NCBI RefSeq assembly: GCF_003448965.1
Contig: NZ_QRGC01000016.1
Span: 1-64,000 of the forward strand
Source of the DNA: Oceanicella sp. SM1341
GTDB lineage: Bacteria; Pseudomonadota; Alphaproteobacteria; Rhodobacterales; Rhodobacteraceae
Length of the DNA stretch: 64,000 bases
Direction: 5' to 3'
Shown: positions 7,927 through 22,787 of the stretch, one piece after another
Layout: every line of letters starts with the position of its first letter
How positions within the stretch are numbered: the stretch's first letter is position 1
Program-made: the position numbers and the translations under genes
The notes under the pieces: generated by a model
The model's database searches: none
What the model was told of the DNA's origin: nothing
What the model saw: only the letters and a program-made list of their open reading frames with translations

Positions 7927-8766
7927 ATGGGCGCATTGGAAAACCGCTCACTCGACCGGGGCATCACCCTGATGGAGATCCTCGCGCGCAGCGGGTCGAG
8001 CTCGCTCGCCGAGCTGCACGCCGCCTCCGGCCTGCCGAAATCCTCCATCCGCCGGCTGCTGGGCACGCTGATCGCCCGGCGCATCGTGCGCCGCTCGCTC
8101 TCCGACGGGCGCTACCGCATCAACATCACCCTGCCGATGAGCACCGGCGCACCGATCCCGCACGGGCTCGCCTGGCTGGTGGACCTCTCGCTGCCGCTCG
8201 CGCTCGCGCTCACCCACCGGGTGCGCTGGCCCTCCGACATCCACGTGATGGACGGCCGGCGCATGCAGATCGTCGAATCCACCCGCCCCGCGAGCCCGTT
8301 CCACATCTACCCCGGCCGGGTGAACCGCTGGCTCAACATCTTCGGCACCGCCTCGGGCACCGCCTGCCTCTCGGCCATGCGCCGCGAGGCGGTGATGGAG
8401 GTGCACCGGCTCACCGAAGGCGACGAGACCTGGGGCCTCGCCCGCTTCGGCCTCGGCATCGAGGCCTATCTCGACATCCTGGAGGCCACGCGCCGGCGCG
8501 GTTATGCCATCCGCCTCTCGGCCTACCTGGGCGAGACGGTGTTCGACGACGGGCTCGCCGCCATCGCCCTGCCGCTCATCGAGCGCGGCCGGCCGCTGGG
8601 CGCGCTCACCCTGCTCTGGCCGCGGGTGCACCTCACCCACGAGGCCTTCGCCGCCGAGCATCTCGGCCCCCTGCGCGACACCACGCAGCGCATCTGCGCC
8701 GCCCTCGACGCGCGCACCGCCCCCCCGGAGAGGACAGAGGATGCAGTTCACCCTCAGCGAACTTGA
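7927..8766 (+). CDS. IclR family transcriptional regulator
   Basis: A 279-residue regulator. The N-terminal winged helix-turn-helix covers about residues 8-65 (SLAELHAASGLPKSSIRRLLGTL), and the rest matches the IclR effector-binding domain, including FGTASGTACLSAM. The ATG at 7927 has GGGGGGAG upstream; the longer frame starting at 7765 crosses the divergent promoter region and is rejected. It is divergent from the TRAP-TAXI/sulfatase operon, its likely target, and its end overlaps the next gene by 26 nt, so that enzyme probably shares its promoter. The effector is unknown. Confidence 0.88.
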   Translation: MGALENRSLDRGITLMEILARSGSSSLAELHAASGLPKSSIRRLLGTLIARRIVRRSLSDGRYRINITLPMSTGAPIPHGLAWLVDLSLPLALALTHRVRWPSDIHVMDGRRMQIVESTRPASPFHIYPGRVNRWLNIFGTASGTACLSAMRREAVMEVHRLTEGDETWGLARFGLGIEAYLDILEATRRRGYAIRLSAYLGETVFDDGLAAIALPLIERGRPLGALTLLWPRVHLTHEAFAAEHLGPLRDTTQRICAALDARTAPPERTEDAVHPQRT

Positions 8767-9712
8767 CGCCGCCCACGCGCTGGTGGCCGCGCAGATGCCG
8801 CCCAGCCCGCAATACGCCTGGCCGCTGCTGGCCGAGGCCGCGGGCGCCGAGGTCTGGCTCAAGCACGAGAACCACACCCCGGCCGGAGCCTTCAAGATCC
8901 GCGGCGGCATCACCTACATCGACTGGCTGCGCAAGGCCCAGCCGGAGGTGCGCGGCATCATCACCGCCACCCGCGGCAACCACGGCCAGTCCCAGGCCCG
9001 GGCGGCCTCCGCCGCGGGGCTGCAGCCGGTGGTGGTTGTCCCGCACGGCAATTCGGCGGAGAAGAACGCCGCCATGCGCGGCTTCGGCGCCCGGCTGCTG
9101 GAGCATGGCGCGGATTTCGAGACCGCCCGCGCCGAGGCCGAGCGGCTGGCGCAGGCCGAGGGGCTGAGCATGGTGCCGTCGTTCCATCCCGAGCTGGTGC
9201 GCGGTGTCGCCACCTGCGGGCTGGAGCTGCTGCGCGCCGTGCCCGACCTCGACACGGTCTACGTGCCGGTGGGGCTCGGCTCGGGCATCTGCGGCATGAT
9301 CGCGGCGCGCGATGCGCTCGGGCATCCGGCGCGCATCGTGGGCGTGGTGGCCGAGGGCGCGCCCGCCGCGCGGCTCTCCTTCGAGGCCGGCCACCCGGTG
9401 GCCACCAACACCGCCCGCACCTTCGCCGACGGCATCGCCCTGCGCAGCGCCGACGCGGCTGCACTGGCGATCTACCGCGCCGGGGCGGAGCGCCTCATCT
9501 CCGTGTCGGACGCCGAGATCGCCGAGGCGATGCGGCTGATCTTCCGCGCCACCCACAACCTCGCCGAGGGGGCGGGGGCCGCCGCCCTCGCCGGGCTGAT
9601 GCAGGAGCGCGGGCGCCTCGCCGGCCGCAAGGTGGCCGCCGTGCTCTCGGGCGGCAACATCGACACGCCGCTCTTCGCCGAGGTGCTGGCAGGGGGCGTG
9701 CCGGCGGCCTAG
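8741..9712 (+). CDS. Threonine/serine dehydratase-like PLP enzyme
   Basis: A 323-residue fold-type II PLP enzyme. The PLP lysine is Lys52 in PAGAFKIRGG; TRGNHGQSQA is the substrate loop and SGGNID near the C-terminus belongs to the cofactor-binding region. It lacks the regulatory C-terminal ACT domain of biosynthetic IlvA, so it resembles catabolic dehydratases and EutB-type enzymes. It would deaminate a hydroxy-amino acid to a 2-oxo acid. The ATG at 8741 has GGAGAGGA upstream and overlaps the IclR gene by 26 nt. The true substrate cannot be read from sequence. Confidence 0.85.
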   Translation: MQFTLSELDAAHALVAAQMPPSPQYAWPLLAEAAGAEVWLKHENHTPAGAFKIRGGITYIDWLRKAQPEVRGIITATRGNHGQSQARAASAAGLQPVVVVPHGNSAEKNAAMRGFGARLLEHGADFETARAEAERLAQAEGLSMVPSFHPELVRGVATCGLELLRAVPDLDTVYVPVGLGSGICGMIAARDALGHPARIVGVVAEGAPAARLSFEAGHPVATNTARTFADGIALRSADAAALAIYRAGAERLISVSDAEIAEAMRLIFRATHNLAEGAGAAALAGLMQERGRLAGRKVAAVLSGGNIDTPLFAEVLAGGVPAA

Positions 9713-10032
9713 CGGGGCGCGCGCGCCTTCACCGCCTCGATCTCGCGCAGCATGCGGCGCAGCGCGTCGAGCGCCTCCCGCTCCTGCGGGGCAAGCGGCG
9801 TTTTCGGCTCGAAATGCGCGGCAATCACGCCGAGTGCATCGCCAATGCGCCCGAGCTGGCGGCCGTAGCTGCCGACCTCCTCGAGCACCCGCGCCTCGGT
9901 CTCCGGATCCTCGGAGCGGCCCATGTTGATGGTCACCAGGCTGAAGCTGTTGCCGATCGCGGTCATCAGCGAGGTCCACTGGCGGAAGATCTGCGAGACG
10001 TTCCCCGACAGGGGCATGTGGAATACCGGCAT
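9709..10032 (-). CDS. Conserved-looking hypothetical protein, 107 residues
   Basis: I do not recognise this protein. The ATG at 10032 has GGAG about 8 nt upstream; the longer frame to 10161 is not protein-like. The predicted product is mostly helical and charged at the C-terminus (ending EREALDALRRMLREIEAVKARAPR-like), with a more hydrophobic N-terminal part containing FRQWTSLMTAIGNSFSLVT. It has no signal peptide and no clear membrane helix. Its 3' end overlaps the dehydratase gene by 4 nt in convergent orientation. It may be a small helical-bundle protein. The next upstream gene on the same strand encodes a Rid-family protein about 140 bp away. Confidence 0.6.
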   Translation of the reverse strand: MPVFHMPLSGNVSQIFRQWTSLMTAIGNSFSLVTINMGRSEDPETEARVLEEVGSYGRQLGRIGDALGVIAAHFEPKTPLAPQEREALDALRRMLREIEAVKARAPR

Positions 10033-10174
10033 GAACACACTCCGTCCCGTGCCCCTCACGCGCGTCCCCCGCTGCCCAGACTGCCCGCCCGGGCCGGCGC
10101 GGAGAAGACGGCGCAATGCCGCGGAACAGAGCTGATGAACAATCTCCATTCCGCCGCGCAAGCCCGCGGAATGG

Positions 10175-10561
10175 CTAATTTATCGCCAGGACCTCGATCT
10201 CCACCACGAACTCCGGCCGGGTGAAGCCGCCCACGATCATCAGCGTGGAGGCGGGCGGCGGCGAGACCTCGGCCAGCCAGGCGTCGCGCGCCTTCATGTA
10301 GCCGGCCATGTGCTCGCGCGCCGTCACGAATGCATTCAATCGGATCACCGAGGCGGGGGTGGCGCCGGCCTCCGCCAGGATCGCTTCGATATTTCCGAAG
10401 CAGAGGGCTGCCTGCGCCTCCGCCCCCTCGGGTACCGTGCCGTCGGCGGCGATGCCGAGCTGGCCGGAGGTGGCGATCAGCCCGCGCCCCGGCGGCACCT
10501 CGATCCCGTGCGAGTAGCGCGCGAAGGGCGGGCGGATGGAGGGCGGTGTGAGGGCTTTCAT
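10175..10561 (-). CDS. RidA/YjgF-family protein without the catalytic arginine
   Basis: A 128-residue Rid-superfamily protein with the full trimer-forming fold, including the conserved end VVEIEVLAIN. In true RidA imine deaminases the active-site arginine lies in PARS; here the aligned segment reads PPASTLMI, so Arg is replaced by Ser. It therefore probably belongs to one of the non-deaminase Rid subfamilies, often found beside amine or pyrimidine breakdown genes. The ATG at 10561 is divergent from the large NMT1-type operon starting at 10813, which it may serve. Confidence 0.85.
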   Translation of the reverse strand: MKALTPPSIRPPFARYSHGIEVPPGRGLIATSGQLGIAADGTVPEGAEAQAALCFGNIEAILAEAGATPASVIRLNAFVTAREHMAGYMKARDAWLAEVSPPPASTLMIVGGFTRPEFVVEIEVLAIN

Positions 10562-10812
10562 GGCGGCTGCCTTTCGCTATGGTGATTCCGTGACGACGCC
10601 CTTTCTCGCAGGCGCGGCGGCCGGCGGGAAAGTCCGTGGCCGGCGGGCGGAGAATTTTCCCGACCATCTGGTCAGGGTTTCAGCAGCCGCGCGCAAAGCC
10701 TGTGCATTTTGGCGGCAATGCGGGGGTATCCCCGGAAAAAGCCGATATGCGCACTTGTCGACAATTCAACCGGAACGCACTCTGGCCCGGGCGACAATCA
10801 ACGGAGGCGCGC
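10562..10812. promoter_or_regulatory. Divergent control region with GACCA-TC-TGGTC palindrome
   Basis: This 251-bp space separates the Rid gene (minus) from the long plus-strand catabolic operon. It has an exact palindrome GACCATCTGGTC at 10662-10673, which is a likely operator. No convincing -35/-10 pair was found. The gene for a cognate regulator is not adjacent; the nearest candidate is the MocR-type regulator at 19918-21333. Confidence 0.4.
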
Positions 10813-11805
10813 ATGAAGGCGGGATTCATCACGGCGGTGGCGGCATCGCTGATCGCGGTATCGGCACAGGCCCAGGACCTGGTGGAAGTGTCCTACGGCA
10901 CCAACTGGCTGGCCCAGGCCGAGCACGGCGGCTTCTACCAGGCGGTGGCCGACGGCACCTATGCCGAGTGCGGCCTCGATGTCACCATCGTGCCGGGCGG
11001 CCCGCAGGTGAACAACCGCGCACTCATGCTCGCCGGGCGCATCGACTTCAACATGGGCGGCGACCTGCTGCAGGCCTTCTCGGCCGTCGAGCAGGGCATC
11101 CCGGTGGTCAATGTCGCGGCCATCTTCCAGAAGCACCCGCAGGTGATCCTCGCCCACCCCGGCGTGGCCGACAGCTGGGAGGACCTCAAGAAGCTCAAGC
11201 TGCTGATCGGCGACAACGGCTACCAGAGCTACTACCAGTGGATGATCAAGGCCTACGGCTTCACCGAGAGCCAGCGCGTGCCCTACACGTTCAACCCCGC
11301 GCCCTTCCTCGCCGACAAGGAAACCGGCATGCAGGGCTACCTCTCCTCCGAGCCCTACGTGGTGGAGAAGGAAGGCGGCTTCACCCCCAACGTGTTCCTG
11401 ATCGCCGACCAGGGCTATTCCAGCTACGCCACCACCATCGAGACCATGCGCGACACGCTGGAGAGCCGCCCCGAGGTGGTGAAATGCTTCGTCGAGGGCT
11501 CGATAAAGGGCTGGTACACCTATCTCTACGCTGACGGATCGGCCGCCAACGCCCTGATCATGCAGGACAATCCGGAGATGACCCAGGACAAGATCGACTA
11601 CGCCCTGGAGAAGATGAAGGAAAACGGCATCGCCGACAGCGGTGACGCGCTGGAGAAGGGCATCGGCGTGATGACCGAGGAAAAGGTGAAGGACTTCTAC
11701 GACAAGATGGTGGAGGCCGGCGTGGTCTCGGCCGATCTCGACTGGCAGGCCTCCTTCGTGACCGATTTCGTCGGCCAGGGTGTCGGCATGGACATCAAGC
11801 AGTAA
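10813..11805 (+). CDS. ABC transporter substrate-binding protein, NMT1/THI5-like
   Basis: A 330-residue periplasmic protein with a Sec signal peptide (cleavage about AQA-QD at residues 20-21). The core matches the NMT1/THI5-like family (VSYGTNWLAQAEHGGFYQAVADG, GGPQVNNRALMLAGRIDFNMG). Members bind pyrimidine precursors of thiamine, riboflavin-type compounds or other small organics. The ATG at 10813 has GGAGG upstream; 59 earlier in-frame codons are rejected because they precede the signal peptide. First gene of an operon encoding a transporter and eight enzymes. A ring-nitrogen ligand is inferred from the downstream deaminase-like and creatininase-like genes. Confidence 0.9.
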   Translation: MKAGFITAVAASLIAVSAQAQDLVEVSYGTNWLAQAEHGGFYQAVADGTYAECGLDVTIVPGGPQVNNRALMLAGRIDFNMGGDLLQAFSAVEQGIPVVNVAAIFQKHPQVILAHPGVADSWEDLKKLKLLIGDNGYQSYYQWMIKAYGFTESQRVPYTFNPAPFLADKETGMQGYLSSEPYVVEKEGGFTPNVFLIADQGYSSYATTIETMRDTLESRPEVVKCFVEGSIKGWYTYLYADGSAANALIMQDNPEMTQDKIDYALEKMKENGIADSGDALEKGIGVMTEEKVKDFYDKMVEAGVVSADLDWQASFVTDFVGQGVGMDIKQ

Positions 11806-11826
11806 CGGCAGAAACGGACGGCAGCC

Positions 11827-11853
11827 GCGCCCGGGGGCATTCTCCCCGGGCGC
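11827..11853 (+). terminator. Intercistronic stem-loop after the binding-protein gene
   Basis: Exact 10-bp stem GCGCCCGGGG/CCCCGGGCGC (11827-11836 and 11844-11853) with a 7-nt loop, 21 bp after the binding-protein stop and before the ATPase. There is no T-run, so it more likely stabilises the upstream message end or partly attenuates transcription than stops it. Confidence 0.6.
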
Positions 11854-11872
11854 AGGACGACCGGGAGACAGC

Positions 11873-12652
11873 ATGACCCCTCCAACCACAGGCCAGCGCC
11901 CCGAGCTGATGAGCGTGAACCGCGTGGGCAAGGTGTTCGGCGGCGCCACCGTGGCGTTGCAGGACATGTCGCTCACCGTGCGGCAGGGGGATTTCATCTC
12001 GCTGCTCGGCCCCTCGGGCTGCGGCAAGTCCACCGCGCTGCGGCTGATGTCGGGCCTCTCGCTGCCCACCTCGGGCGCCATCCGCTGGGCCGTGCCGCAG
12101 GAGCCGGGCGCCCTCGGCGTGGTGTTCCAGGAGCCCACGCTGATGCCCTGGGCCACGGTGGAGCAGAACGTCTGGCTGCCGATGCGCCTGCGCGGCGCCT
12201 CGCTCTCCTCCGTGCGCGGCGAGATCTCGGAGACCCTGCGGCTGGTGGGGCTCGACGGCTTCCAGCGCGCCTACCCGCGCGAGCTCTCGGGCGGCATGAA
12301 GATGCGCGTGTCCATCGCCCGCGCCCTCGTGACCCGGCCGAAGCTCATCCTGATGGACGAGCCCTTCGCCGCACTCGACGAGATCACCCGCTTCAAGCTC
12401 AACAACGACCTGCTCACCCTGCAGGCCGAGCTGGGCTGCACGGTGGTCTTCGTCACCCACTCGGTGTTCGAGAGCGTGTTCCTCTCCGACCGCATCGTGG
12501 TGATGGCCGCCCGCCCCGGCCGGGTGCTGCGCGAGCTTGCCGTGGACGCGCCCTACCCGCGCGACGAGAGCTTCCGCACCTCGGCCGAATACGCCGCCCT
12601 GTGCCGCGAGGCCTCCGCCGCCCTGCATGACGCGATGGGAGAAGCCGCATGA
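11873..12652 (+). CDS. ABC transporter ATP-binding protein (nitrate/taurine/NMT1 type)
   Basis: A 259-residue ATPase. Walker A is GPSGCGKST, the signature LSGGMKMR and Walker B LILMDEP. It powers uptake with the permease that overlaps its end (ATGA at 12649). The ATG at 11873 follows GGGAG; an in-frame ATG at 11780 lies inside the binding-protein gene and is rejected. Sequence type (SsuB/TauB-like) fits the NMT1-type binding protein upstream. Confidence 0.92.
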   Translation: MTPPTTGQRPELMSVNRVGKVFGGATVALQDMSLTVRQGDFISLLGPSGCGKSTALRLMSGLSLPTSGAIRWAVPQEPGALGVVFQEPTLMPWATVEQNVWLPMRLRGASLSSVRGEISETLRLVGLDGFQRAYPRELSGGMKMRVSIARALVTRPKLILMDEPFAALDEITRFKLNNDLLTLQAELGCTVVFVTHSVFESVFLSDRIVVMAARPGRVLRELAVDAPYPRDESFRTSAEYAALCREASAALHDAMGEAA

Positions 12653-13506
12653 CCAGCCTCACCGAGGGCAGCGCGCCCGAGCTCGTCGATGTCGAGGAGC
12701 GCAGCCGCCGCCGGCGCCTTGCGTTCGAGAAATGGGGCAAGTGGGTGCTGCCGGTGCTGGTGATCGGGCTCGGCATCCTCGCCTGGCACCTTGTCGTCAC
12801 GCTCAACGGCATCCCGCACTACATCCTGCCCGGGCCGGTGCTGGTGTTCGAGACGCTGGTGAAGGACTGGGCGCTCCTGCTCGACGCCCTGCTCATCACC
12901 CTGCAGATCACCCTCATGGCGCTCGCCATCGCGGTGATCGGCGGCGTGGGGCTGGCGGTGCTCTTCACCCAGTCGCGGCTGGTGGAGATGTCCTTCTACC
13001 CCTACGCGGTCATCCTGCAGGTGACGCCCATCGTGTCGATCGCGCCGCTGATCTTCATCTATGTCGACAACAAGATGGCGGGCCTGCTGATCTGCGCCTG
13101 GATCGTGGCCTTCTTTCCGGTGCTCTCCAACACCACGCTGGGGCTGAACTCGGCCGACCACAACCTGCGTGACCTGTTCCGCATCTACGGCGCCACGCGC
13201 TGGCAGCGGCTGCGCTACCTGCAGCTGCCCTCGGCACTGCCGTACTTCCTCGGCGGCCTGCGCATCGCCGGCGGGCTGGCGCTGATCGGCTCGGTGGTGG
13301 CGGAATACGTGGCGGGCACCGGCGGGGTGGGCTCGGGCCTTGCCTTCACCATCCTGGAGGCGAGCTACCGGCTCAACATTCCGCGCATGTTTGCCGCACT
13401 CCTCCTGATTGCAGCGACCGGCGTGGTGATCTATGCCGGGTTGAGCTTCCTCAGCTACATGCTGCTGCACAAATGGCATGAAAGCGCCATCCGGCGCGAG
13501 GTGTAA
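12649..13506 (+). CDS. ABC transporter permease (SsuC/ThiX type)
   Basis: A 285-residue membrane protein with about six helices and the BPD-transport motif near DLFRIYGATRWQRLRYLQLP, which docks to the ATPase. Its start overlaps the ATPase stop (ATGA). A single permease gene implies a homodimer in the membrane. It completes the uptake system at the head of the catabolic operon. Confidence 0.92.
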   Translation: MTSLTEGSAPELVDVEERSRRRRLAFEKWGKWVLPVLVIGLGILAWHLVVTLNGIPHYILPGPVLVFETLVKDWALLLDALLITLQITLMALAIAVIGGVGLAVLFTQSRLVEMSFYPYAVILQVTPIVSIAPLIFIYVDNKMAGLLICAWIVAFFPVLSNTTLGLNSADHNLRDLFRIYGATRWQRLRYLQLPSALPYFLGGLRIAGGLALIGSVVAEYVAGTGGVGSGLAFTILEASYRLNIPRMFAALLLIAATGVVIYAGLSFLSYMLLHKWHESAIRREV

Positions 13507-13511
13507 AACGT

Positions 13512-14783
13512 ATGGACTTCAGAGATCTTCCCAAGACCGGCTCCTACCGGCTTGAAAACATGCGCGTTCCCGCCTGCCTTGCCGGGGGTGGCGAGGGGCT
13601 GGTGCCGCTCTCGCTCACCATCGCGGGCGGGCGCATCTCGGAGGCGCCGGCCGATGCGGTGCTCGACATGAAGGGGGCGATGGTGTTTCCCGCCTTCACC
13701 GACATGCACACCCATCTCGACAAGGGCCACATCTCGCCCCGCGCGCCAAACCCCGACGGCACCTTCCCCGGCGCGCTCGCTACCGTGGGCGCCGACCGGG
13801 TGGCGAACTGGAGTGCCGAGGACGTTCGCGCCCGGATGGATTTTTCCCTGCGCTGCGCCTTCGCCCATGGCACCGCGCGCATCCGTACCCATCTCGACAG
13901 CCTCGCCCCGCAGGACGAGATCTCCTTCCCGGTGTTCCGCGAGATGCGGGCCGAATGGGCCGGGCGCATCGAGCTGCAGGCGAGCTGCCTTGTCGCCATC
14001 GACCGGATGGAGCTCGACGGCTGCTTCCGCCGCACGGCGCAGATCGTGGCCGAGAGCGGCTCCGTGCTCGGCTGTGTCGCCTACCCGATGCCGGGCATCG
14101 AGGCGCAGCTCGACGGGTTCCTCGCGCTCGCCGAGCACCACGGGCTCGACGCCGATTTCCATGTCGACGAGACCGGAGACCCCGCAGCCGACGCCCTGCG
14201 CTCCATCGCCGAGGCGGTGCTGCGCACCGGCTTTCAGGGCCATGTCACCGTGGGCCACTGCTGCTCGCTCGCCGTGCAGGAGGAGGCGGTGGCCCTCTCC
14301 ACCCTCGACACGGTGGCAAGGGCCGGCCTGCACGTGGTCTCCCTGCCGATGTGCAACATGTACCTGCAGGACCGGGTGGCCGGCCGCACGCCGCGCTGGC
14401 GGGGCGTCACCATGGTGCAGGAGATGAAGGCGCGAGGCATTCCGGTGGCCTTCGCTTCCGACAACACGCGCGACCCCTTCTATGCCTACGGCGATCTCGA
14501 CATGCTCGAGGTGATGCGCGAGGCCACCCGCATCGCCCATCTCGACCATGGCGCGGACGACTGGGTGCGCGCCTTCACCACCGTGCCCGACACGGCCTGC
14601 CGCTTCGCGAGCCCCGGCCTCGCGCCCGGCGCGCCGGCGGACATGGTGATCACCCGGGCGCGCAACTGGTCCGAGCTCTTCGCCCGGCCGCAGGCCGACC
14701 GCATCGTCATCCGCGCCGGCCGGCAGGTCGACCGCACCCTGCCCGACTATTCCGAGCTCGACCCGCTCATGGAGACAGCATGA
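13512..14783 (+). CDS. Cytosine-deaminase-like amidohydrolase
   Basis: A 423-residue metal-dependent amidohydrolase closest to cytosine deaminase (CodA). All catalytic positions can be seen: His66 and His68 in DMHTHLDKG, His217 and Glu220 in FHVDETGD, His249 in GHCCSL and Asp317 in SDNTRDPFY. These match CodA His61/63, His214, Glu217, His246 and Asp313 in order. It should deaminate or open a ring in a pyrimidine, triazine, creatinine-like or related compound. It begins 5 bp after the permease and overlaps the next gene by ATGA. The exact ring is unknown because CodA relatives differ in substrate. Confidence 0.85.
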   Translation: MDFRDLPKTGSYRLENMRVPACLAGGGEGLVPLSLTIAGGRISEAPADAVLDMKGAMVFPAFTDMHTHLDKGHISPRAPNPDGTFPGALATVGADRVANWSAEDVRARMDFSLRCAFAHGTARIRTHLDSLAPQDEISFPVFREMRAEWAGRIELQASCLVAIDRMELDGCFRRTAQIVAESGSVLGCVAYPMPGIEAQLDGFLALAEHHGLDADFHVDETGDPAADALRSIAEAVLRTGFQGHVTVGHCCSLAVQEEAVALSTLDTVARAGLHVVSLPMCNMYLQDRVAGRTPRWRGVTMVQEMKARGIPVAFASDNTRDPFYAYGDLDMLEVMREATRIAHLDHGADDWVRAFTTVPDTACRFASPGLAPGAPADMVITRARNWSELFARPQADRIVIRAGRQVDRTLPDYSELDPLMETA

Positions 14784-16183
14784 AACCCAATGTCGCCGCC
14801 GCCCTCGAGGCGCTCTCGCATCTCGACACCACGGTGAACCCGGCCGCGCTGAAGGCCCAGAGCCGGGATTTCTTCTGGTACTCGCCGGTGCTCAAGGCCC
14901 GGCTCGACGGCGTGGTGGCCGATTTCGCCGTCTCCCCCGCCACGGAGGAGGAGGTGATCGAGGTGCTGCGCACCTGCTATGCGCATGACTGCCCGGTGAC
15001 CACCCGCGGCGCCGGCACCGGCAACTACGGCCAGGCAATGCCGCTCGCGGGCGGCTGCGTGCTCAACCTGCGCAAGCTGAACCGGGTGAAGGAGATCCTG
15101 CCCGGCCGGCTGATCGTGGAGCCGGGCGCGATCCTGAAGGACATCGACGCCGCCACCCGCGCCCACTCCGGCCAGGAGCTGCGGATGTTCTCCTCCACCT
15201 GGGCGACGGCGAGCATCGGCGGCTTCATCGCCGGCGGCTCGGGCGGCGTGGGCTCGGTGCGCTGGGGCTCGCTGCGCGATCTCGGTAACATCATCCGCCT
15301 GCGCGTGGTCACCATGGAGGCCGAGCCGCGCGTGCTCGAGTTCCGTGGCGAGGAACTGGCCCGCGTCTCCCACGCCTACGGCACCAACGGCATCATCACC
15401 GAGCTGGAGATGCCGCTCGCCCCCGCATACGACTGGGTGGACCTCATGGTCGCCTTCGACGATTTCGCCGAGGCCGCCCGCTATGCCGACGCGCTGGCGA
15501 GCGAGGACGGCATCCTCATCAAGCTCGCCACCGTGATCGAGGGCCCGGCCCCGGCGCGCTACTTCCAGCGCCTCAAGGGGCGGGTGCGCGACGACCAGTC
15601 CCTCGTGCTGCTGATGGTGGCGCCGCACGCGATGGACGCCTTCGAGACCTTCACCGCCCGCCGCCCCGCCGCCTCGCTCCTCTACCGCTCGGACGATTGC
15701 GACTGGGAGCGCGGGCCGGGCATGGTGTTCGAATACGCCTGGAACCACACCACCCTGCGCGCGCTGAAGGTCGACCCCGCCATCACCTACCTGCAGGTGC
15801 GCTACGCCTTCCCCGACCACCTGGAGCGGGTGGAGGAGGTGCGCCGCGTCTTCGGCGAGGAGGTGCTGCAGCACCTCGAGTTCATGCGCACCAACGGCAA
15901 GGTGCATGCCGCCGGCCTCTCGCTGGTGCGCTTCACCACCGAGGAGCGGCTCGACGAGATCGTGCGCCTGCACGAGGAGATGGGCTGCATGATCTTCAAC
16001 CCCCACCGCTACACGCTGGAGGAGGGCGGGCGGCAGTCGGTCGACGCCATCCAGCTCGGCTTCAAGCGCGAGGCAGACCCCAAGGGCCTGCTCAACCCCG
16101 GCAAGATGATCACCTGGGAAGACCCCGACTGGACGTATGACCGGATGTACGCCTACCCCGGTCTCAAGGAGCAGGCCGAATGA
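14780..16183 (+). CDS. FAD-binding oxidase/dehydrogenase (GlcD/VAO family)
   Basis: A 467-residue flavoprotein of the VAO/PCMH type. The PP-loop lies around residues 74-90 (TTRGAGTGNYGQAMPL), followed by IVEPGAILKDID and SIGGFIAGGSGGVGS, which hold the FAD diphosphate. The end (NPHRYTLEEGGRQ... DPKGLLNPGKMI) is the usual C-terminal signature. It probably oxidises a hydroxy acid, amine or ring intermediate. The start overlaps the amidohydrolase by ATGA; a long upstream extension of the frame is a shadow of that gene. Confidence 0.85.
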   Translation: MKPNVAAALEALSHLDTTVNPAALKAQSRDFFWYSPVLKARLDGVVADFAVSPATEEEVIEVLRTCYAHDCPVTTRGAGTGNYGQAMPLAGGCVLNLRKLNRVKEILPGRLIVEPGAILKDIDAATRAHSGQELRMFSSTWATASIGGFIAGGSGGVGSVRWGSLRDLGNIIRLRVVTMEAEPRVLEFRGEELARVSHAYGTNGIITELEMPLAPAYDWVDLMVAFDDFAEAARYADALASEDGILIKLATVIEGPAPARYFQRLKGRVRDDQSLVLLMVAPHAMDAFETFTARRPAASLLYRSDDCDWERGPGMVFEYAWNHTTLRALKVDPAITYLQVRYAFPDHLERVEEVRRVFGEEVLQHLEFMRTNGKVHAAGLSLVRFTTEERLDEIVRLHEEMGCMIFNPHRYTLEEGGRQSVDAIQLGFKREADPKGLLNPGKMITWEDPDWTYDRMYAYPGLKEQAE

Positions 16184-16764
16184 AACGCGCCCTCGTGCTC
16201 TACGCGCATCCCTGCGAGGAGAGCTTCGCCGCCTCCGTGCACCACACGGTCGTCACCCGCCTGCGCGCGAACGACTGGGCGGTGGATGACTGCAACCTCT
16301 ACGAGGAGGGGTTCTCGCCCGTGCTCAGCGGCCCCGAGCGCCGCGCCTACCACGACATCGGCCCCAACACCCTGCCGGTGCAGGACTACGTGGAGCGCAT
16401 CCGCCGCGCCCGGGCGCTGGTGATGGTGTTCCCGGTGTGGAACTTCGGCTATCCGGCCATCCTGAAGGGCTTCTTCGACCGGGTGTTCCTGCCCGGCGTC
16501 TCCTTCGGCATGGTCGACGGCAAGGTGCAGGGCATGCTGCACAACATCCGCCGGGTGGCGGCCGTCACCACCTACGGCGGCACCCGCACCCGGGCCACGC
16601 TGGCGGGCGACCCGCCGCGCCGCATCGTGATGCGCGCCCTGCGCAAGACCGTGCACCCCGGTGCGAGCTTCCGCTATCTCGCCCTCTACGACATGAACCG
16701 CGCCACCCACGTGCAGCGCGAGGCGCATCTCACCCGCGTCTACCGCGAGATGGACGCCTTCTGA
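16180..16764 (+). CDS. NAD(P)H-quinone reductase-like flavodoxin-fold protein (first copy)
   Basis: A 194-residue flavodoxin-fold protein of the NQO/KefF/MdaB type (RALVLYAHPCEESFAASVH; MVFPVWNFGYPAILKGFFDRVF). Such enzymes bind FMN or FAD and reduce quinones, flavins or nitro/azo groups with NAD(P)H. It overlaps both neighbours (ATGA, then TGATG). It is clearly related to the next gene, with the same domain and similar length, so the pair arose by duplication and may work as a heterodimer or a flavin reductase pair. Confidence 0.85.
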   Translation: MKRALVLYAHPCEESFAASVHHTVVTRLRANDWAVDDCNLYEEGFSPVLSGPERRAYHDIGPNTLPVQDYVERIRRARALVMVFPVWNFGYPAILKGFFDRVFLPGVSFGMVDGKVQGMLHNIRRVAAVTTYGGTRTRATLAGDPPRRIVMRALRKTVHPGASFRYLALYDMNRATHVQREAHLTRVYREMDAF

Positions 16765-17369
16765 TGCGCGCGCTCGTCGTCTACTGCCACCCGAACCCGG
16801 AAAGCTACACCGCCGCCGTGCTGGCGGTGGTGCAGGCCCGGCTGGCGGCGGCAGGCGCCGAGACACGGGTGCTCGACCTCTACGCCGAGGGCTTCACGCC
16901 CGCGCTGAGCGCGCAGGAGCTGGCGGATTACGAGAAATCGCCGGAGAACATCGCCCCCGTGGCCGCCCACGTGGAGGCACTGCGCTGGTGCGACACGCTG
17001 ATCTTCGTCTACCCCACCTGGTGGTACGGGCTGCCGGCGGTGCTGAAGGGCTGGCTCGACCGGGTGATGCTGCCCGACGTCGCCTTCCTGATGCCCAAGG
17101 GCGGCGACATCGGCCCCGGCCTCACCCACATCACCCGGCTGGGCGTGTTCACCACCTGCGGGGCGAGCTGGCCGCTCACCTTCTTCATCGGCGCGCCGGG
17201 CAAGCGCACGCTGCTGCGCGGCCTGCGCATCCTGTGCCACCGCCGCGCCCGCACCGCCTTCGCGGCGCATTACCGGATGGACAGCTCCACGCCGCAGAGC
17301 CGCGCCCGCCACCTCGCCCGGGTGGAGGCGCGGATGACCCGGTTCCTCGCCCGAAAGGCCCCCGCATGA
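16764..17369 (+). CDS. NAD(P)H-quinone reductase-like flavodoxin-fold protein (second copy)
   Basis: A 201-residue relative of the preceding protein (ALVVYCHPNPESYTAAVL; IFVYPTWWYGLPAVLKGWLDR). It has the same flavodoxin fold and the VFPxW-like flavin contact as YPTWW. The start codon shares one base with the previous stop. Two tandem reductases beside a 2-oxoglutarate-oxygenase-like gene and an FAD oxidase suggest redox steps in one pathway. Substrate unknown. Confidence 0.85.
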   Translation: MRALVVYCHPNPESYTAAVLAVVQARLAAAGAETRVLDLYAEGFTPALSAQELADYEKSPENIAPVAAHVEALRWCDTLIFVYPTWWYGLPAVLKGWLDRVMLPDVAFLMPKGGDIGPGLTHITRLGVFTTCGASWPLTFFIGAPGKRTLLRGLRILCHRRARTAFAAHYRMDSSTPQSRARHLARVEARMTRFLARKAPA

Positions 17370-18283
17370 TCCCGGTGCTCGACCTCGCCGCCTTCCGCGC
17401 GGGCGATGCGGAGGGGTTCACCGCCGCCCTCTCCGCCGCCTGCCGCGAGACCGGCTTCTTCCTGCTCACCGGCCACGGCGTCGACGAGGGCCTCACGGCG
17501 GCGCTCTTCGGGCAGGCCGGTGCCCTCTTCGCCCTGCCGCAGGCGCGGAAGGAGGCGGTGGGCATCCACCTCTCGCCCCACAACCGCGGCTATGTCGCCC
17601 TCGGCGCCGAGCGGCTCGACGACACCTCCGGCGCGGTGGACCGCAAGGAGGCCTTCAACATCGGCCTCGACCTCGCGCCCGACGACCCCGAGGTGCTGGC
17701 CGGCAAGCCCTTCCGCGGCGTGAACCTCTGGCCCGATCTGCCCGGCTTCCGCGAGACGGCGCTGAGCTATTTCAACGCGGTCTGGGCGCTCGGGGTCGAG
17801 CTGCACCGCGCGGTCGCGCGCGACCTCGGCCTGCCGGAGGGGCATTTCGCGCCCGAGTTCACCGCGCCCATGGCCACGCTGCGCCTGCTGCGCTACCCGG
17901 CGGCCTCGGGCGGCGCGGGCGAGATCGGCGCCGGCGCGCATACCGATTACGGCTCGCTCACCCTGCTGATGACCGACGGCACCCCCGGCCTGCAGGTGCG
18001 CCCCCGCGGCGCCGGCTGGACCGACGTGCCGCATGTGCCCGGCGCCTTCGTGGTCAACATCGGTGACTGCCTGATGCGCTGGACCAACGACATCTATGTC
18101 TCCACCCCGCACCGGGTGCTGCCGCCCGCGCGCGAGCGCCGCTCGCTCGCCTTCTTCCTCGACCCCAACCCCGACACGCTGGTCGCCGCCCTGCCCGGCA
18201 CCGGCACGCCGAAATACCCCGCCATCCGCGCGGCGGATTACCTCGCCGCCCGGCTGGCGGCGACCTACGAGCAGAAAGGCTGA
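17366..18283 (+). CDS. 2-oxoglutarate/Fe(II)-dependent oxygenase (isopenicillin N synthase-like)
   Basis: A 305-residue oxygenase with the N-terminal DIOX_N domain and the double-stranded beta-helix core. The iron triad is His192 and Asp194 in GAHTDYGSLTLL plus His249 in STPHRV; the co-substrate motif R-x-S is Arg258/Ser260. It probably hydroxylates or demethylates an intermediate, as plant-type and bacterial relatives do on N-heterocycles and amines. It overlaps both neighbouring genes, so it is firmly part of the operon. Confidence 0.9.
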   Translation: MIPVLDLAAFRAGDAEGFTAALSAACRETGFFLLTGHGVDEGLTAALFGQAGALFALPQARKEAVGIHLSPHNRGYVALGAERLDDTSGAVDRKEAFNIGLDLAPDDPEVLAGKPFRGVNLWPDLPGFRETALSYFNAVWALGVELHRAVARDLGLPEGHFAPEFTAPMATLRLLRYPAASGGAGEIGAGAHTDYGSLTLLMTDGTPGLQVRPRGAGWTDVPHVPGAFVVNIGDCLMRWTNDIYVSTPHRVLPPARERRSLAFFLDPNPDTLVAALPGTGTPKYPAIRAADYLAARLAATYEQKG

Positions 18284-19077
18284 TGCCGATGCCCCGCCAT
18301 TACTGGGCCCAGTACCGCACCACCGAATTCGCCGGCTTCGACCCCGCGCGCACCATCGCCGTGCTGCCCACCGCCGCCATCGAGCAGCACGGGCCGCACC
18401 TGCCCGTGGGGGTGGACAGCATGATCGGCCAGGGCATGCTCGACACGCTCACCGGCCTGCTCGACGCGGCGGAGGACATCCGCGTGCTCATCCTGCCCCT
18501 GCAGTGCGTGGGCAAGTCGAACGAGCACCTGCACGCGCCGGGCACCGTCACCCTCACCGCGGCCACCGCCATCGAGGCCTGGACGGAGATCGGCCTCTCC
18601 GTCGCCCGCGCCGGCCTGCGCAAGATGGCGATCGTGAACAGCCACGGCGGCAACGTGGACATGAATTCCATCATCGCGCGCGAGCTGCGCGTGCGCGCGA
18701 ACATGCTGGTGGGCAAGGCGCACTGGGGCGCCTTCGGCACGCCGGAGGGCATGTTCTCGCCGCGCGAGAAGACCTACGGCATCCATGGCGGCGACGTGGA
18801 GACCTCGCTCATGCTGCATTTCCGCCCCGAGCTGGTGGAGATGGCCGAGGCGCAGAACTTCACCTCCACCGCCGAGGGCATGGGCAATTTCACCCACCTG
18901 CGCCCCACCGGCCCGACCTCCTACGGCTGGATCGCCTCCGACCTCAACCCGCACGGCACCGTGGGCGAGGCCGCCCTCGCCACGGCGGAAAAGGGGGCCG
19001 CCACCGCGCGCCACCAGGCGGAGGGCTTCCTCGCCTTCCTGCGCGAGCTCGCGGAGTTCGAGCTGCCCGGCCTCTGA
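18283..19077 (+). CDS. Creatininase-family amidohydrolase (HGGN subgroup)
   Basis: A 264-residue creatininase-fold metalloenzyme. Glu34, His36 and Asp45 in IEQHGPHLPVGVD match the metal ligands of true creatininase at the same numbers. The second-site motif of true creatininase is HYEN, but here it is HGGN (His121), so one glutamate ligand is missing. HGGDVETS follows near residue 170. The HGGN form is shared with other family members that hydrolyse cyclic amides or formamides, so the substrate is probably not creatinine. A second ATG at 18289 is an alternative start. The start shares one base with the oxygenase stop. Confidence 0.85.
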   Translation: MPMPRHYWAQYRTTEFAGFDPARTIAVLPTAAIEQHGPHLPVGVDSMIGQGMLDTLTGLLDAAEDIRVLILPLQCVGKSNEHLHAPGTVTLTAATAIEAWTEIGLSVARAGLRKMAIVNSHGGNVDMNSIIARELRVRANMLVGKAHWGAFGTPEGMFSPREKTYGIHGGDVETSLMLHFRPELVEMAEAQNFTSTAEGMGNFTHLRPTGPTSYGWIASDLNPHGTVGEAALATAEKGAATARHQAEGFLAFLRELAEFELPGL

Positions 19078-19153
19078 TCCTGCCCGAAGGCCGCATTGCG
19101 CCGCCCCCCGCGCCGCGCTAAGCGCGGGGGCAGCAGCCCCGGGAGGAGAGATC

Positions 19154-19801
19154 ATGGACGCGGAAGAGCAGGCCCTGCGCGCGGCGATCATCGCGAAATG
19201 CCGCTGGATGAACGACAGCGGCCTGAACGCCGGCACCTCCGGCAACATCTCCGCCCGCTGGCGCGAGAGGATGCTCATCACCCCCTCCGCCACGCCCTAC
19301 GAGGCGATGGAGCCCGAGATGCTCGCCTCCATGCCGATCGAGGGCGACTACGGTGCTTGGGACGGCCCGCTCAAACCCTCCACCGAGTGGCGCTTCCACC
19401 TCGACATCCTGCGCGCGCGGCCCGAGGCGCAGGCCATCATCCACACCCATGCGCCCTATTGCACCGCGCTCGCCATCACCGGGCGCGACATCCCGGCGGT
19501 GCATTACATGATCGCGGCCTTCGGCGGCGCCACGGTGCGCTGCGCGGGCTACGCGCCCTTCGGCACCGCCGCACTTTCGCAGAAGGCGCTGGAGGCGCTG
19601 GAGGGCCGCTGCGCCTGCCTGCTCGCCAACCACGGCATGATCGCCTTCGGACCCTCGCTGGAGAAGGCGATGTGGCTGGCGGTGGAGCTCGAAACCCTCG
19701 CGCGGCAATACCACAACGCCCTGCTGATCGGCGGCGCCGTGGTGCTCTCGGACGCGCAGATCGAGGAAACCCTCGCCGCCTTCAAGGGCTACGGGCTGTA
19801 G
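19154..19801 (+). CDS. Class II aldolase/adducin family protein (fuculose-phosphate aldolase-like)
   Basis: A 215-residue zinc-dependent class II aldolase. GTSGNISAR binds a phosphate or carboxylate, Glu in STEWRFH is the likely acid/base, and the zinc histidines lie in HTHAPYC and ANHGMIAFG. It would split or decarboxylate a short hydroxy-oxo acid. It has its own strong ribosome site (GGGAGGAG) 76 bp after the creatininase-family gene and is probably the last gene of the operon, acting on the ring-cleaved product. Confidence 0.88.
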   Translation: MDAEEQALRAAIIAKCRWMNDSGLNAGTSGNISARWRERMLITPSATPYEAMEPEMLASMPIEGDYGAWDGPLKPSTEWRFHLDILRARPEAQAIIHTHAPYCTALAITGRDIPAVHYMIAAFGGATVRCAGYAPFGTAALSQKALEALEGRCACLLANHGMIAFGPSLEKAMWLAVELETLARQYHNALLIGGAVVLSDAQIEETLAAFKGYGL

Positions 19802-19917
19802 GACCCGCCGGCACCGGCAGGCTGAGGCCACTGCGCCCGCCTGCTCTCAAAGGCGCTTTCGCTGTTACACGAAGAACGCACCGCAAGCAACTGCCACAGA
19901 ATGCTTTTCCGACTCGT

Positions 19918-21333
19918 TCAGCCCCCGCGCCCACTCCGTGCAAACAGCTCGCGGGCGAAGGCGTGGAAGGCCGCGTCCGTGCCATAGGCCACGTTCACCC
20001 GGATATGCGCCCGGCCCGGCGCGCCGCCGGGCGAGAACACCGAGCCGGGGGCGATGAAGATCCCGGCCTCCGCACCCTCATGCGCGATGTCGGCCTCGCT
20101 CACCCCCTCGGGCAGGCTGGGGTAGAGGTAGTAGCCGGGCCCGGTGCCGAAGGGCAGGCCGAAGCCGGAGGCGCGCAGGGCGGCGGCGGTTTCGGCCACG
20201 CTGGCGCTCACCCGCTGGCCGAGGCGGCGCAGGTGGCCGGCGTATTGCCCGGCGTCGATGAGCTCGAAGATGAAGCGCTCGATGTAGGAGGAGGTGGCGA
20301 CCGTGCCGAGCATCTTCAGCGCCACGAGCTGTCGCACCACCTCCGGAGGCGCGCTCACGAAGCCCGAGCGCAGGCTGGCCGAGAGGGTCTTGGAGAAGGT
20401 GCCCACGTGGATCACCTCGCAGCGCGAGGGCAGGCTCGCCAGCCGCACCGTGCCGGGGGGCACGAGATCGGCGAAGGTGTCGTCCTCCACCACGAAGAGC
20501 CCGCCCTGCCCGGCGAGTTGCAGCACGGCGGCGCATTTCTCCGGCGAGGTGGTGGTGCCGGTGGGGTTGTGCGCCACGGTCTGGGTGAACAGGCCGCGCG
20601 GCCGGTGGCGGGCGATCTTGCGGGCGAGGTCGTCGATGTCCGGCCCGTCGGGCAGGCGGCGCACGCCGATCAGCCGCACCCCGGCGAGGCGCAGCTTGGC
20701 GAAGAGCGGGTAGTAGCCCGGCTCGTCGACCAGCACGCAGTCGCCCCGGCTGAGATACTGGCGGGTGATGAGGTCGAAGGCGTGGTTGGCGCCGAAGGTG
20801 GTGAACACGGTGTCGGGGCTCGCGGCGATGCCGCGCTCCTCCAGCCGCCGGGCGAGCAGCCGGCGCAGCGGCATGTAGCCCGCCGCCTCGCCATAGCCGT
20901 AGTCGGTGCCGCTGCGCACCGAGATGCCGAAGCGGAAATGGCGCTGCAGCTCGGAGGCCTCCAGCCAGCTCGCGGGCGGGCGGCCGTCGCCGATGCGGGC
21001 GTCGAAATTGCGGTCGAGCTGCTCGCGCAGCAGCGAGATCGCGTCCGTCGCCTCGCGGAAGGACTGGCTGGTGCGCTCGCCCATCCGCGGCAGCGCATGC
21101 GCCACGTAGAAGCCCGAGCCGCGCCGCGCCACCACCAGGCTGTCGGCCACCAGCCGCTCGTAGGCCTGCACCACCGAATTGCGCGAGATCCGCATCTCGT
21201 CGGCCATGCCGCGGATCGGCGGCAGGCGCTCTCCGGGCTCCAGCCGGCCGGCTTCGATCTGGCCGCGCACGCGCTCGTACACCTCGTCGACCCGGCGCAC
21301 GGGCACGCGGCGAATCCCTCTCCCCTGTCGCAA
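19918..21333 (-). CDS. MocR/PdxR-type GntR-aminotransferase fusion regulator
   Basis: A 471-residue MocR regulator: a GntR winged helix (about residues 13-78, with [20 protein letters not shown]) joined to a fold-type I aminotransferase-like domain. That domain keeps Asn256 in HNPTG, Asp284 and the PLP lysine Lys315 in [11 protein letters not shown]. MocR proteins use PLP, alone or with an amino compound, as effector. The start appears to be TTG at 21333 with GGGGAG 5 nt upstream; no in-frame ATG fits, and GTG codons 9-11 residues in are alternatives. It is divergent from mvaA, its likely target. Confidence 0.85.
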
Positions 21334-21378
21334 AGCGTCTCCCCATTCTTCCGCAACACATTGAAAAGGCGCGCGGAA

Positions 21379-21425
21379 ATTGTTTGTCAGAATTGTACCT
21401 TGTGTCTGATTGTGCGCCGTATAGC
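21379..21425. promoter_or_regulatory. Candidate MocR binding repeats upstream of mvaA
   Basis: Three ATTGT direct repeats occur at 21379, 21392 and 21409, the last two inside the related stretches TGTCAGAATTGT and TGTCTGATTGT. MocR regulators commonly bind direct repeats between themselves and their target. A weak -10-like TATAGC lies at 21420-21425. Function is inferred. Confidence 0.35.
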
Positions 21426-21467
21426 GTTCGCAGGCAAGACATCAACAAGACTGCCCGGAGGAAAGAT

Positions 21468-22787
21468 ATGGGTTCGCAGACCCCGGCCGCCGCTCCCAGC
21501 GCGGCCTACAGTTCCCGCATCGCCAATGCCCGCAACATGACCCCGGCCGAGCGTCTCGCCGCCGTGGCGGAGGCCGTGGGCCTCACGGCCGAGGAGCGCG
21601 CCCTGCTGGCAGACCCCGCCGCCCTGCCCCTCACCGCCGCCGACGGGATGATCGAGAACGTCATCGGCACCTTCGGCATGCCGATGGGCATCGCCACCAA
21701 CTTCGTGGTGAATGGCCGCGAGGTGCTGGTGCCGATGGCGGTGGAGGAGCCCTCGGTGGTGGCCGCCGCCTCGTACATGGCCCGCATCGCGCGCGATCAC
21801 GGCGGCTTCATGACCTCGAGCTCCGCCCCGATCATGCGCGCCCAGGTGCAGGTGATCGGGCTGAGCGACCCGCATGGCGCCCGCCTCGCCCTGCTGCGCG
21901 CGCGTGACGAGATCGTCACCACCGCCAACGCGCGCGACGCGCTGCTGGTGAAGCTCGGCGGCGGCTGCCGCGACATCGAGGTGCATGTCTTCGAGCAGAG
22001 CCCCGCCGGCCCGATGGTGGTGATGCACCTGCTGGTGGACGTGCGCGACGCGATGGGCGCCAACACCGTGAACACCATGGCCGAGGCCGTGGCCCCGATC
22101 GCCGAGCGGGTGACCGGCGGCCAGGTGCGGCTGCGCATCCTCTCCAACCTCGCCGACCTGCGGCTGAGCCGGGCGATGGTGCGCATTCCCGAAGCCGCCC
22201 TCGCCACGAAGGATTTCGACGGCGCGCGCATGGTGAGCGGCATCCTCGAGGGCTACGCCCTTGCCGCCACCGACCCCTACCGTGCCGCCACCCACAACAA
22301 GGGCATCATGAACGGCATGGACCCCGTGGTGGTGGCCACCGGCAACGACTGGCGCGCCATCGAGGCAGGCGCCCATGCCTGGGCGGCGCGCAAGGGTTCC
22401 TACGGCTCGATGAGCGTGTGGGAGCGCGACGCGGCCGGAAACCTGGTGGGCTCGATGGAAGTGCCGATGGCCGTGGGCCTGGTGGGCGGGGCGACCAAGA
22501 CCCACCCGCTCGCCCGGCTGGCGCTGAAGATCATGGGCGTCTCCTCGGCGCAGGAACTGGCCGAGGTGATCGTGGCCGTGGGCCTCGCGCAGAACATGGC
22601 GGCGCTGCGCGCGCTCGCCACCGAGGGCATCCAGCGCGGGCACATGGCCCTGCACGGGCGCAACATCGCCATCCTCGCCGGGGCCACCGGCGCCGAGGTC
22701 GAGACGGTCGCCAAGCGCATGGCCGCCGAGCGCGACGTGCGCGTGGACCGCGCGCAGGAATTGCTGGCAGAGATGCGCGGGGCGTGA
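21468..22787 (+). CDS. mvaA: Hydroxymethylglutaryl-CoA reductase, degradative (class II)
   Basis: A 439-residue class II HMG-CoA reductase, the form that in Pseudomonas mevalonii oxidises mevalonate to HMG-CoA for catabolism. Catalytic residues align: Glu94 in AVEEPSVV, Lys278 in [11 protein letters not shown], Asp294 in GNDW and His392 in GHMALHGRN. The dinucleotide loop is [11 protein letters not shown] (194-204). The N-terminus has the substrate motif [12 protein letters not shown]. The ATG at 21468 follows CGGAGGAA. It starts an operon with a TRAP transporter, which suggests import and oxidation of mevalonate. HMG-CoA lyase is not in this window. Confidence 0.92.

Follow-up and report, generated by a model that had tools for sequence, protein, structure and literature searches.

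A conserved, transporter-fed operon of Oceanicella sp. SM1341 probably devoted to pterin or folate catabolism

Introduction

Pterins, folate among them, are produced by most cells. Here we describe a run of ten plus-strand genes at positions 10813–19801 of a 64,000-nucleotide (nt) stretch (the window) of contig NZ_QRGC01000016.1 from Oceanicella sp. SM1341 (genome 5.7 Mb), together with a divergent Rid-family gene at 10175–10561, which most probably encodes an import and breakdown system for pterins or folate. This reading is drawn from the orthology of the operon's flavin adenine dinucleotide (FAD) protein to Protein Data Bank (PDB) entry 6v42, from a counterpart of its deaminase that lies beside the same module in another genome, from an invariant residue, Asn318, in the deaminase, and from the conservation of the genes as a set. 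A sequence-only reading of the window had proposed a transporter-fed catabolic operon for an N-heterocycle, beginning with deamination of the ring, and this much is borne out, with a conserved gene order; every gene it named (transporter, deaminase, FAD protein, two reductases, 2-oxoglutarate (2OG) oxygenase, creatininase and aldolase, with the Rid gene divergent) was recovered with Pfam. It had also called the substrate unidentified and had known of no described pathway, and both statements give way to the FAD protein being an orthologue of 6v42, which its depositors link to folate, and to the match between the deaminase counterpart beside the same module and a published pterin deaminase.

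Results and Discussion

Orthology of the FAD protein to PDB 6v42

When the FAD protein was compared with PDB sequences using phmmer, 6v42/6v43 matched over the full length with 599.9 bits and about 55–59% identity to 6v42, and the next entry scored 57.4 bits. The title of 6v42 reads "Crystal structure of the flavin oxygenase with cofactor bound involved in folate catabolism". A model of the protein based on an alignment of 41 sequences (the window protein and 40 of 56 references; predicted local distance difference test, pLDDT, 84.5) retrieved 6v42 first from the PDB with VIA (Z 46.9, root-mean-square deviation 2.3 over 449 residues), the next fold having Z 29.4, and Foldseek gave E 3.4e-58 for the same pair; an alignment-free fold of pLDDT 32.5 was not used. 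The structure sequence is 73–75% identical to the FAD proteins of eight genomes of one family in our collection, f10, and each of the five genomes among them that were inspected (L183, L184, L185, L189 and L196) has the whole module with its gene order unchanged. We take this family to be rhizobial because one of its genomes, G254, carries the Rhizobium leguminosarum version, with seven genes at 79–92% identity. In a maximum-likelihood tree with 15 of 56 FAD references, from which L172 was excluded for a stop in its stretch, 6v42 joins L183, L184 and L185 at 100/99 inside the operon's own clade, and the clade of 27 rows that holds both the window protein and 6v42 has support 100/100. Judged by these comparisons the window protein is an orthologue of 6v42 and a predicted FAD oxygenase, and the role that we propose for it is the central oxidative step, where the sequence-only reading had listed an FAD protein with no role. 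The structure presumably originates from the Begley laboratory.

Two further observations concern this protein and its surroundings. On the facing strand at the end of the operon, six f10 stretches carry a DAO-type dehydrogenase with a folate-binding GCV_T domain (L183 11698–14220, with relatives in L184, L185, L189, L196 and L197). In L178 (6867–13130) two FAD oxygenase paralogues, 47% and 61% identical to the labelled ones and each with a reductase, flank a single creatininase gene, and the pair possibly reflects two related substrates.

The deaminase is related to the pterin deaminases

You et al. (2022) cloned a pterin deaminase of 399 amino acids from Variovorax sp. F1 that converts folic and pteroic acid to their deamino forms, with a preference for folic acid; the same paper gives 37% identity between this enzyme and the earlier pterin deaminase Arad3529, and an "endoribonuclease" gene downstream of the pterin deaminase gene in V. 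paradoxus (PMC9513972). We searched for a degenerate form of the published F1 cloning primer in 61 genomes of the genus of G522, of which two matched, and in seven genomes of the genus of G350, of which none did. The two matches are L208 (genome G570) and L207. At 8221–9420 of L208 lies an open reading frame (ORF) of 399 codons whose start matches the published primer at all but one of 21 positions. A Rid gene comes next, and the strand facing the ORF carries genes for a VanB-type reductase, a flavodoxin reductase, a binding protein, an FAD protein, a permease, an ATPase and a creatininase. The same gene set, with no primer match, is found in L173 (G522). On the strength of the primer match, the length of 399 residues and the Rid neighbour, the genus of L208 and L207 is probably Variovorax. 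The window deaminase is 37% identical to the L208 protein over 397 columns, which is the level reported between the F1 enzyme and Arad3529 (PMC9513972), so that by this measure, taken through L208 and not through the F1 sequence itself, it belongs with the kin of the pterin deaminases.

Searches of the whole Oceanicella genome with the L208 proteins led back to the operon in each case. The L208 deaminase found the operon's CodA-like protein first (E 5.7e-69; next 4.5e-31), the FAD protein found its counterpart at 1.8e-112 (next 1.0e-4), and the binding protein found its own at 2.2e-99 with 51% identity (next 2.1e-13).

The metal ligands of the deaminase had been described as intact, and they are: His66, His68, His217 and Asp317, as well as Glu220 and His249, are kept in all 59 aligned rows, the window included, and in all seven distant rows. 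Asn318, beside the metal-binding Asp, is equally invariant (all 59 rows and all seven distant members, L208 being one of the latter). At this position E. coli CodA carries Asp and 4r7w carries Ser, and the three other paralogues in the Oceanicella genome have Cys, Gly, or a variant that lacks the metal Asp. Taken together, these comparisons suggest that the "cytosine deaminase" annotated in such operons is probably a pterin deaminase.

The L207 and L208 deaminase and Rid genes stand at the end of a run of erythronate/tetronate genes (L208 4437–9866; L207 6438–9586). NCBIfam models, run on four genes of L208 and on the last two of L207, identify the L208 genes as erythronate dehydrogenase, 3-oxo-tetronate kinase, 3-oxo-tetronate 4-phosphate decarboxylase and 2-oxo-tetronate isomerase, and the two L207 genes take the last two of these names. 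In L208 three of the four pass the cut-off of their model; the decarboxylase, which is of the class II aldolase family, stays below it (230.5 bits; cut-off 250). Elsewhere, an amidohydrolase on plasmid pADP-1 (L204 7815–9146), 55% identical to the module deaminase of L174, lies near atzD and a BMP-type ABC (ATP-binding cassette) importer; the rest of the module is not in the stretch seen, and a similar gene occurs on p3 of Agrobacterium leguminum (L143 8947–10251).

Conservation of the gene set

In order to count how often the genes occur together, the deaminase was used as bait in a named genome collection, and 65 loci were found. Fourteen stretches shorter than 20 kb and L098 were excluded, as were L095 and L096 as non-orthologous, leaving 48 loci with at least 20 kb of sequence and a deaminase identity of at least 50%; a gene counted as present wherever its match fell in the stretch, which reached at most 10 kb to each side. 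The transporter genes and the FAD protein were present in 47 of these 48 loci, which shows that the grouping is not due to chance, and the only locus described with the deaminase and no other gene of the module is L070. Reductase 2 was present in 45 loci, reductase 1 in 40, the Rid and creatininase genes in 36 each and the 2OG oxygenase in 34; this aldolase was present in none. The sequence-only reading had asked for the same gene order elsewhere; the transporter and the FAD protein answer to this and the aldolase does not. Among 149 genomes of the family the deaminase had a match at 1e-40 in 44, and one of more than 500 bits in 31, its own genome included.

The nearest named relative that we met is Paroceanicella profunda, with the same genes at 87–94% identity on its plasmid pD4M1A, the aldolase included. 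Annotated records with the module include Pseudooceanicola, Palleronia, Sulfitobacter, Rhizobium, Nitratireductor, Leisingera, Klebsiella, Pantoea and a Comamonadaceae plasmid. The Rhizobium module has the creatininase gene upstream, a single reductase and no 2OG oxygenase, and in Nitratireductor another oxidoreductase takes the place of the flavodoxin type. Klebsiella and Pantoea carry a PDR/VanB-type reductase at the position of the alphaproteobacterial flavodoxin type, and both types are present in L173 and L208. Since the reductase types are swapped between lineages, we infer that the reductases are interchangeable electron suppliers.

A further 26 neighbourhoods, chosen by their match to the FAD protein, cover 27 of 36 matching places and were counted by hand: 23 contain the deaminase, 22 the creatininase, 22 the binding protein and one (L194) an adjacent 2OG oxygenase. 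Recurrent extra genes formed 27 clusters present in at least four of 96 stretches, and the 17 that were run through Pfam were mostly confined to single lineages (LysR, sugar genes, sugar transporters, cobalamin genes and an FCD regulator).

A methyl-accepting chemotaxis receptor lies near the module in L103 (15856–17940), with relatives in L064, L105, L107, L138, L174 and L188; the carriers are Rhizobium, Albimonas and one genome of family f43, and the receptor may perhaps direct taxis towards the substrate. Ten operons with the 2OG oxygenase, from Roseicyclus, Roseibacterium and others, have no creatininase match in the stretch (L048, L049, L050, L051, L052, L055, L058, L059, L065 and L090).

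The importer, creatininase-family, 2OG and Rid proteins

A PF09084 binding protein, an ATPase and a permease occur together in the operon and make up an ABC importer of the NMT1/THI5 type. In the PDB the binding protein has only weak relatives, namely ThiY (3ix1, E 3.9e-6) and THI5 entries.

The creatininase-family protein scores 213.9 bits with PF02633 (cut-off 31.3) and is the only match in the genome. Its ligands Glu34, His36, Asp45 and His121 are kept in 45 of 45 rows and in all six distant rows, and Gly123, which makes the motif HGGN where the Glu of HYEN would stand, is present in 45 of 45 rows, so its assignment to the HGGN subgroup holds. With TIGR04448, the model for true creatininase, it reaches 76.5 bits against a cut-off of 235.

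In the 2OG oxygenase the HxD...H iron triad is formed by His192 (35 of 36 rows), Asp194 (36 of 36) and His249 (36 of 36), and its PDB relatives include thymine dioxygenase. The Rid protein has Ser105 at the position that aligns with the canonical catalytic Arg of YabJ (1qd9); in canonical RidA this conserved Arg has a catalytic role.

A proposed route

We infer the substrate of the importer, the order of the steps and every ring-opening step, as well as the parts given to the creatininase, Rid and 2OG proteins. A pterin would enter through the importer, folic acid or a product of folate breakdown being the likeliest, and the CodA-like amidohydrolase would strip the 2-amino group, turning the pterin into its lumazine form (for example folate into deaminofolate). 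The NAD(P)H reductases may feed electrons either to the pteridine ring, giving a dihydro form, or to the flavin reaction, and the FAD oxygenase would oxidise the deaminated ring system and ready it for opening. Archaeal formamidopyrimidine deformylase ArfB is a creatininase-family enzyme that acts on a ring-opened pteridine precursor, and by analogy with it the creatininase-family protein of the operon may hydrolyse the amide left by ring opening. For the Rid protein we propose a reactive enamine- or imine-like intermediate as substrate, with chemistry that may differ from classical deamination. The 2OG oxygenase appears to be an optional addition in Rhodobacterales that possibly acts on the C6 side chain, by C9–N10 cleavage, or by hydroxylation of the ring.

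A stricter version would make the module a complete route for the pteridine ring of folate in Pseudomonadota: the creatininase-family enzyme would cleave an acylamino-uracil-type amide after flavin-dependent opening, the Arg-less Rid protein would carry out new chemistry, and the Rhodobacterales 2OG enzyme would split C9–N10 and free p-aminobenzoylglutamate. We consider this version speculative and, taken whole, rather unlikely.

Several observations weigh against the pterin/folate reading as such. The words "folate catabolism" are those of the depositors' title of 6v42, and no paper on that structure was found among the titles and abstract openings that our literature search listed. The 37% identity to the Variovorax type fits the same class of reaction and is not proof of the substrate. 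Asn318 also occurs outside the module, in L143 and L204 (atrazine plasmids, 37% identity) and in L095 (29%), and therefore marks a wider subfamily and not the module, and Gln156 is replaced by Glu in four of seven distant deaminase members. The NCBIfam equivalog NF005759, "cytosine deaminase" (cut-off 403), gives the window protein its name at 614.8 bits and splits it from the L208 type, with the Rhizobium 3841 counterpart passing at 699.5 and those of L208 (344.2) and Klebsiella (229.9) falling below. Over 19.5 kb L207 shows nothing of the module beyond the deaminase and Rid genes, and in both L207 and L208 the deaminase gene overlaps the preceding 2-oxo-tetronate isomerase gene by 4 nt, so that the deaminase of this genus may serve more than the facing module. 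A family scan of the operon genes found no gene of the carboxypeptidase G type, the creatininase had no match near the deaminase in 12 of the 48 loci, and the Rid position 105 is Ser in 40 of 41 rows (the other being a gap) and in all five distant rows.

Alternative substrates and the extent of the pathway

The alternative closest to a pterin/folate route has the same chemistry directed at an unconjugated pterin (biopterin, neopterin, xanthopterin, lumazine or a molybdopterin fragment), with a small importer ligand in place of folate, and we give it somewhat less than an even chance. The lack of a glutamate carboxypeptidase among the operon genes is in keeping with it, as is a binding protein of the small-pyrimidine type with its ThiY-like and THI5 relatives, and many carriers bear genus names that we associate with the sea. 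The overlap of the L207/L208 deaminase genes with a C4-acid (erythronate-type) operon would also favour small pterins that bear a polyol side chain, neopterin for example, and weigh against a strict folate route. However, the title of 6v42 names folate, the Variovorax enzyme prefers folic acid, and small pterins are not among the substrates given in the available part of that report (PMC9513972). Other bicyclic N-heterocycles, such as a flavin or deazaflavin fragment, a queuosine-type base or an oxidised purine, would be served by a deaminase, a flavin oxygenase, an amidohydrolase and a Rid protein, with the folate label of 6v42 then denoting a side activity, and the Glu found for Gln156 in distant members may indicate that the wider family handles more than one substrate; yet the 6v42 title and the L208 module both indicate folate or pterins, and Gln156 and Asn318 are kept together in the window, L138 and L208, which leaves such a ring a slim chance. 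The database label points to cytosine or another pyrimidine related to it, and for this one can cite the NF005759 score, the full set of CodA metal ligands and the fact that the best PDB relatives are cytosine deaminases. Nevertheless, two other cytosine deaminase models score far under their cut-offs (112 and 156 bits against 483 and 438), Asn318 stands where E. coli CodA has its Asp, a folate-type FAD oxygenase would be superfluous for a pyrimidine, and the Variovorax-like counterpart, which belongs to the type of the published pterin deaminase, adjoins the module, so cytosine strikes us as very improbable.

Among other candidates, creatinine and hydantoins were rejected on the score of the creatininase model and the missing Glu of HYEN, and thiamine or riboflavin fragments on the ground that the family of the binding protein was their sole support; the ligands put forward by the sequence-only reading (pyrimidines, hydantoins, creatinine, and thiamine and riboflavin fragments) had omitted pterins and folate.

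How far the pathway extends downstream was weighed separately. That the 2OG oxygenase and the aldolase together form a separate pathway is doubtful as a whole: it is likely for the aldolase, which has no match in 48 of 48 loci, and unlikely for the oxygenase. The latter has no match in 14 of 48 loci and was adjacent in a single one of the 26 FAD-selected neighbourhoods, but its gene overlaps its neighbours in the window by 4 and 1 nt and lies between the reductase and creatininase genes in many Rhodobacterales. The aldolase was seen outside the window only in the near relative P. profunda, where the gap before it is 193 nt as compared with 76 nt in the window, and given its absence from the 48 loci and its position behind the larger gap it is probably a lineage-specific neighbour and not part of the core. 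The logic of deaminase, cyclic amidase and aldolase that had been proposed for the operon thus loses its third member, and chain cleavage by the window's aldolase was rejected on the same count. Close before the deaminase in L173, L207 and L208 there is a class II aldolase of a different subfamily (29% identity), which belongs to the erythronate-type operon.

Organization of the locus and neighbouring genes

The genes of the operon and the divergent Rid gene are listed in Table 1. Six of the nine junctions between the plus-strand genes are overlaps of 1–4 nt and one is a spacing of 5 nt, in agreement with an earlier description of the operon as nearly gapless; the two remaining junctions depart from it, with gaps of 67 nt 3' of the binding-protein gene and 76 nt 5' of the aldolase gene. 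A promoter scan found no sigma-70-type promoter in 10100–20000, and three terminator-like sites were found in the same interval against 3.7 expected from shuffles, all three intragenic. Co-transcription of the genes at 10813–19801, which appears probable to us, therefore rests on the overlaps and on conservation. An Rfam search of 7000–24000 gave no match, and the 76-nt gap before the aldolase shows no notable RNA structure (fold z -1.36).

Table 1. Genes of the operon and the divergent Rid gene, in window coordinates; fractions refer to the 48 orthologous deaminase loci.
Gene product	Positions	Strand	Family evidence	Loci
Rid-family (Ribonuc_L-PSP) protein, divergent	10175..10561	-	PF01042 E 2.9e-20	36/48
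NMT1/THI5-type periplasmic binding protein of ABC importer	10813..11805	+	PF09084 E 4.4e-19	47/48
ABC transporter ATPase	11873..12652	+	PF00005	47/48
ABC transporter permease	12649..13506	+	PF00528	47/48
CodA-like amidohydrolase, predicted pterin deaminase	13512..14783	+	Amidohydro_3; NF005759 614.8 bits	
FAD-dependent oxygenase (predicted), 6v42 orthologue	14780..16183	+	FAD_binding_4; phmmer 599.9 bits	47/48
Flavodoxin-fold NAD(P)H oxidoreductase 1, predicted to supply electrons	16180..16764	+	PF02525 (Flavodoxin_2)	40/48
Flavodoxin-fold NAD(P)H oxidoreductase 2, predicted to supply electrons	16764..17369	+	PF02525 (Flavodoxin_2)	45/48
2-Oxoglutarate/Fe(II) oxygenase, lineage-specific accessory	17366..18283	+	PF14226 (DIOX_N) + PF03171 (2OG-FeII_Oxy)	34/48
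Creatininase-family amidohydrolase, HGGN type	18283..19077	+	PF02633 E 3e-63	36/48
Class II aldolase, fuculose-phosphate-aldolase-like; neighbour, probably not core	19154..19801	+	PF00596 (Aldolase_II)	0/48

Elsewhere in the window, the plus-strand region 47849–53919 appears to form a second uptake-plus-deaminase cluster, in which an adenine-deaminase-type protein (Amidohydro_1 and Adenine_deam_C, 52117–53919) lies behind apparent ABC transporter genes that were judged from ORF starts only. At 21384–25800, on the plus strand, a gene for HMG-CoA reductase (PF00368) stands directly 5' of one for a TRAP binding protein (DctP), possibly for uptake and use of mevalonate, and both genes also adjoin the operon in P. 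profunda. At 7765–9712 (plus strand) an IclR regulator is followed by a pyridoxal-phosphate-dependent enzyme (PF00291); the regulator is kept in P. profunda (81%), and the enzyme was not found in the stretch from that organism. On the minus strand at 39273–41414 a gamma-glutamyltranspeptidase gene lies near a family 5 (peptide-type) binding protein at 44664–46427, perhaps as a cluster for the uptake of gamma-glutamyl peptides.

Significance and comparison with known systems

Deamination of folate by bacteria and a flavin oxygenase of folate catabolism are already known. A full-text search, with subscription journals mostly outside its reach, found no paper that describes the importer, deaminase, oxygenase, reductases, Rid protein and creatininase as one pathway. 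Variovorax sp. F1 consumed more folate than the known products account for, and the available part of that study calls the further mechanism "elusive" and leaves open how bacteria mineralise the pteridine ring past deamination (PMC9513972). In rhizobia, Rhodobacterales, a Comamonadaceae bacterium and enterobacteria, the gene set described here supplies candidate enzymes and an importer as one unit, and it recurs in bacteria of soil, plants and the sea. It also brings the common label "cytosine deaminase" into question and, if the pterin/folate reading is true, would bear on the turnover of vitamin B9 in soil, sea and rhizosphere.

Each protein of the operon can be set against a better-known relative. 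The 14780–16183 protein is a full-length orthologue of 6v42/6v43 (an FAD/FMN-containing dehydrogenase) with the same fold, the structure coming from another bacterium. The deaminase belongs to the same amidohydrolase subfamily as the F1 enzyme and Arad3529 of Agrobacterium radiobacter (EC 3.5.4.11); the available part of the F1 report mentions a carboxypeptidase G and the downstream endoribonuclease gene and describes no operon, transporter or flavin oxygenase (PMC9513972). With E. coli CodA (1k6w) the window deaminase shares the fold family, the metal ligands and the equivalents of Gln156 and Glu217, but it has Asn318 in place of the Asp beside the metal Asp and reaches 112.4 bits with NF006685 against a cut-off of 483. 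The binding protein is of the same NMT1/THI5 type as ThiY, the formyl-aminopyrimidine binding protein (3ix1), to which its match is weak, and its operon includes no thiamine salvage gene. The Rid protein is of the same family, PF01042, as canonical RidA/YabJ (1j7h, 1qd9) but has Ser105 for the Arg. Finally, the creatininase-family protein keeps the four ligands of its family (1q3k, 3lub), whereas it differs from true creatininase (1q3k) in having HGGN for HYEN and a model score far under the cut-off.

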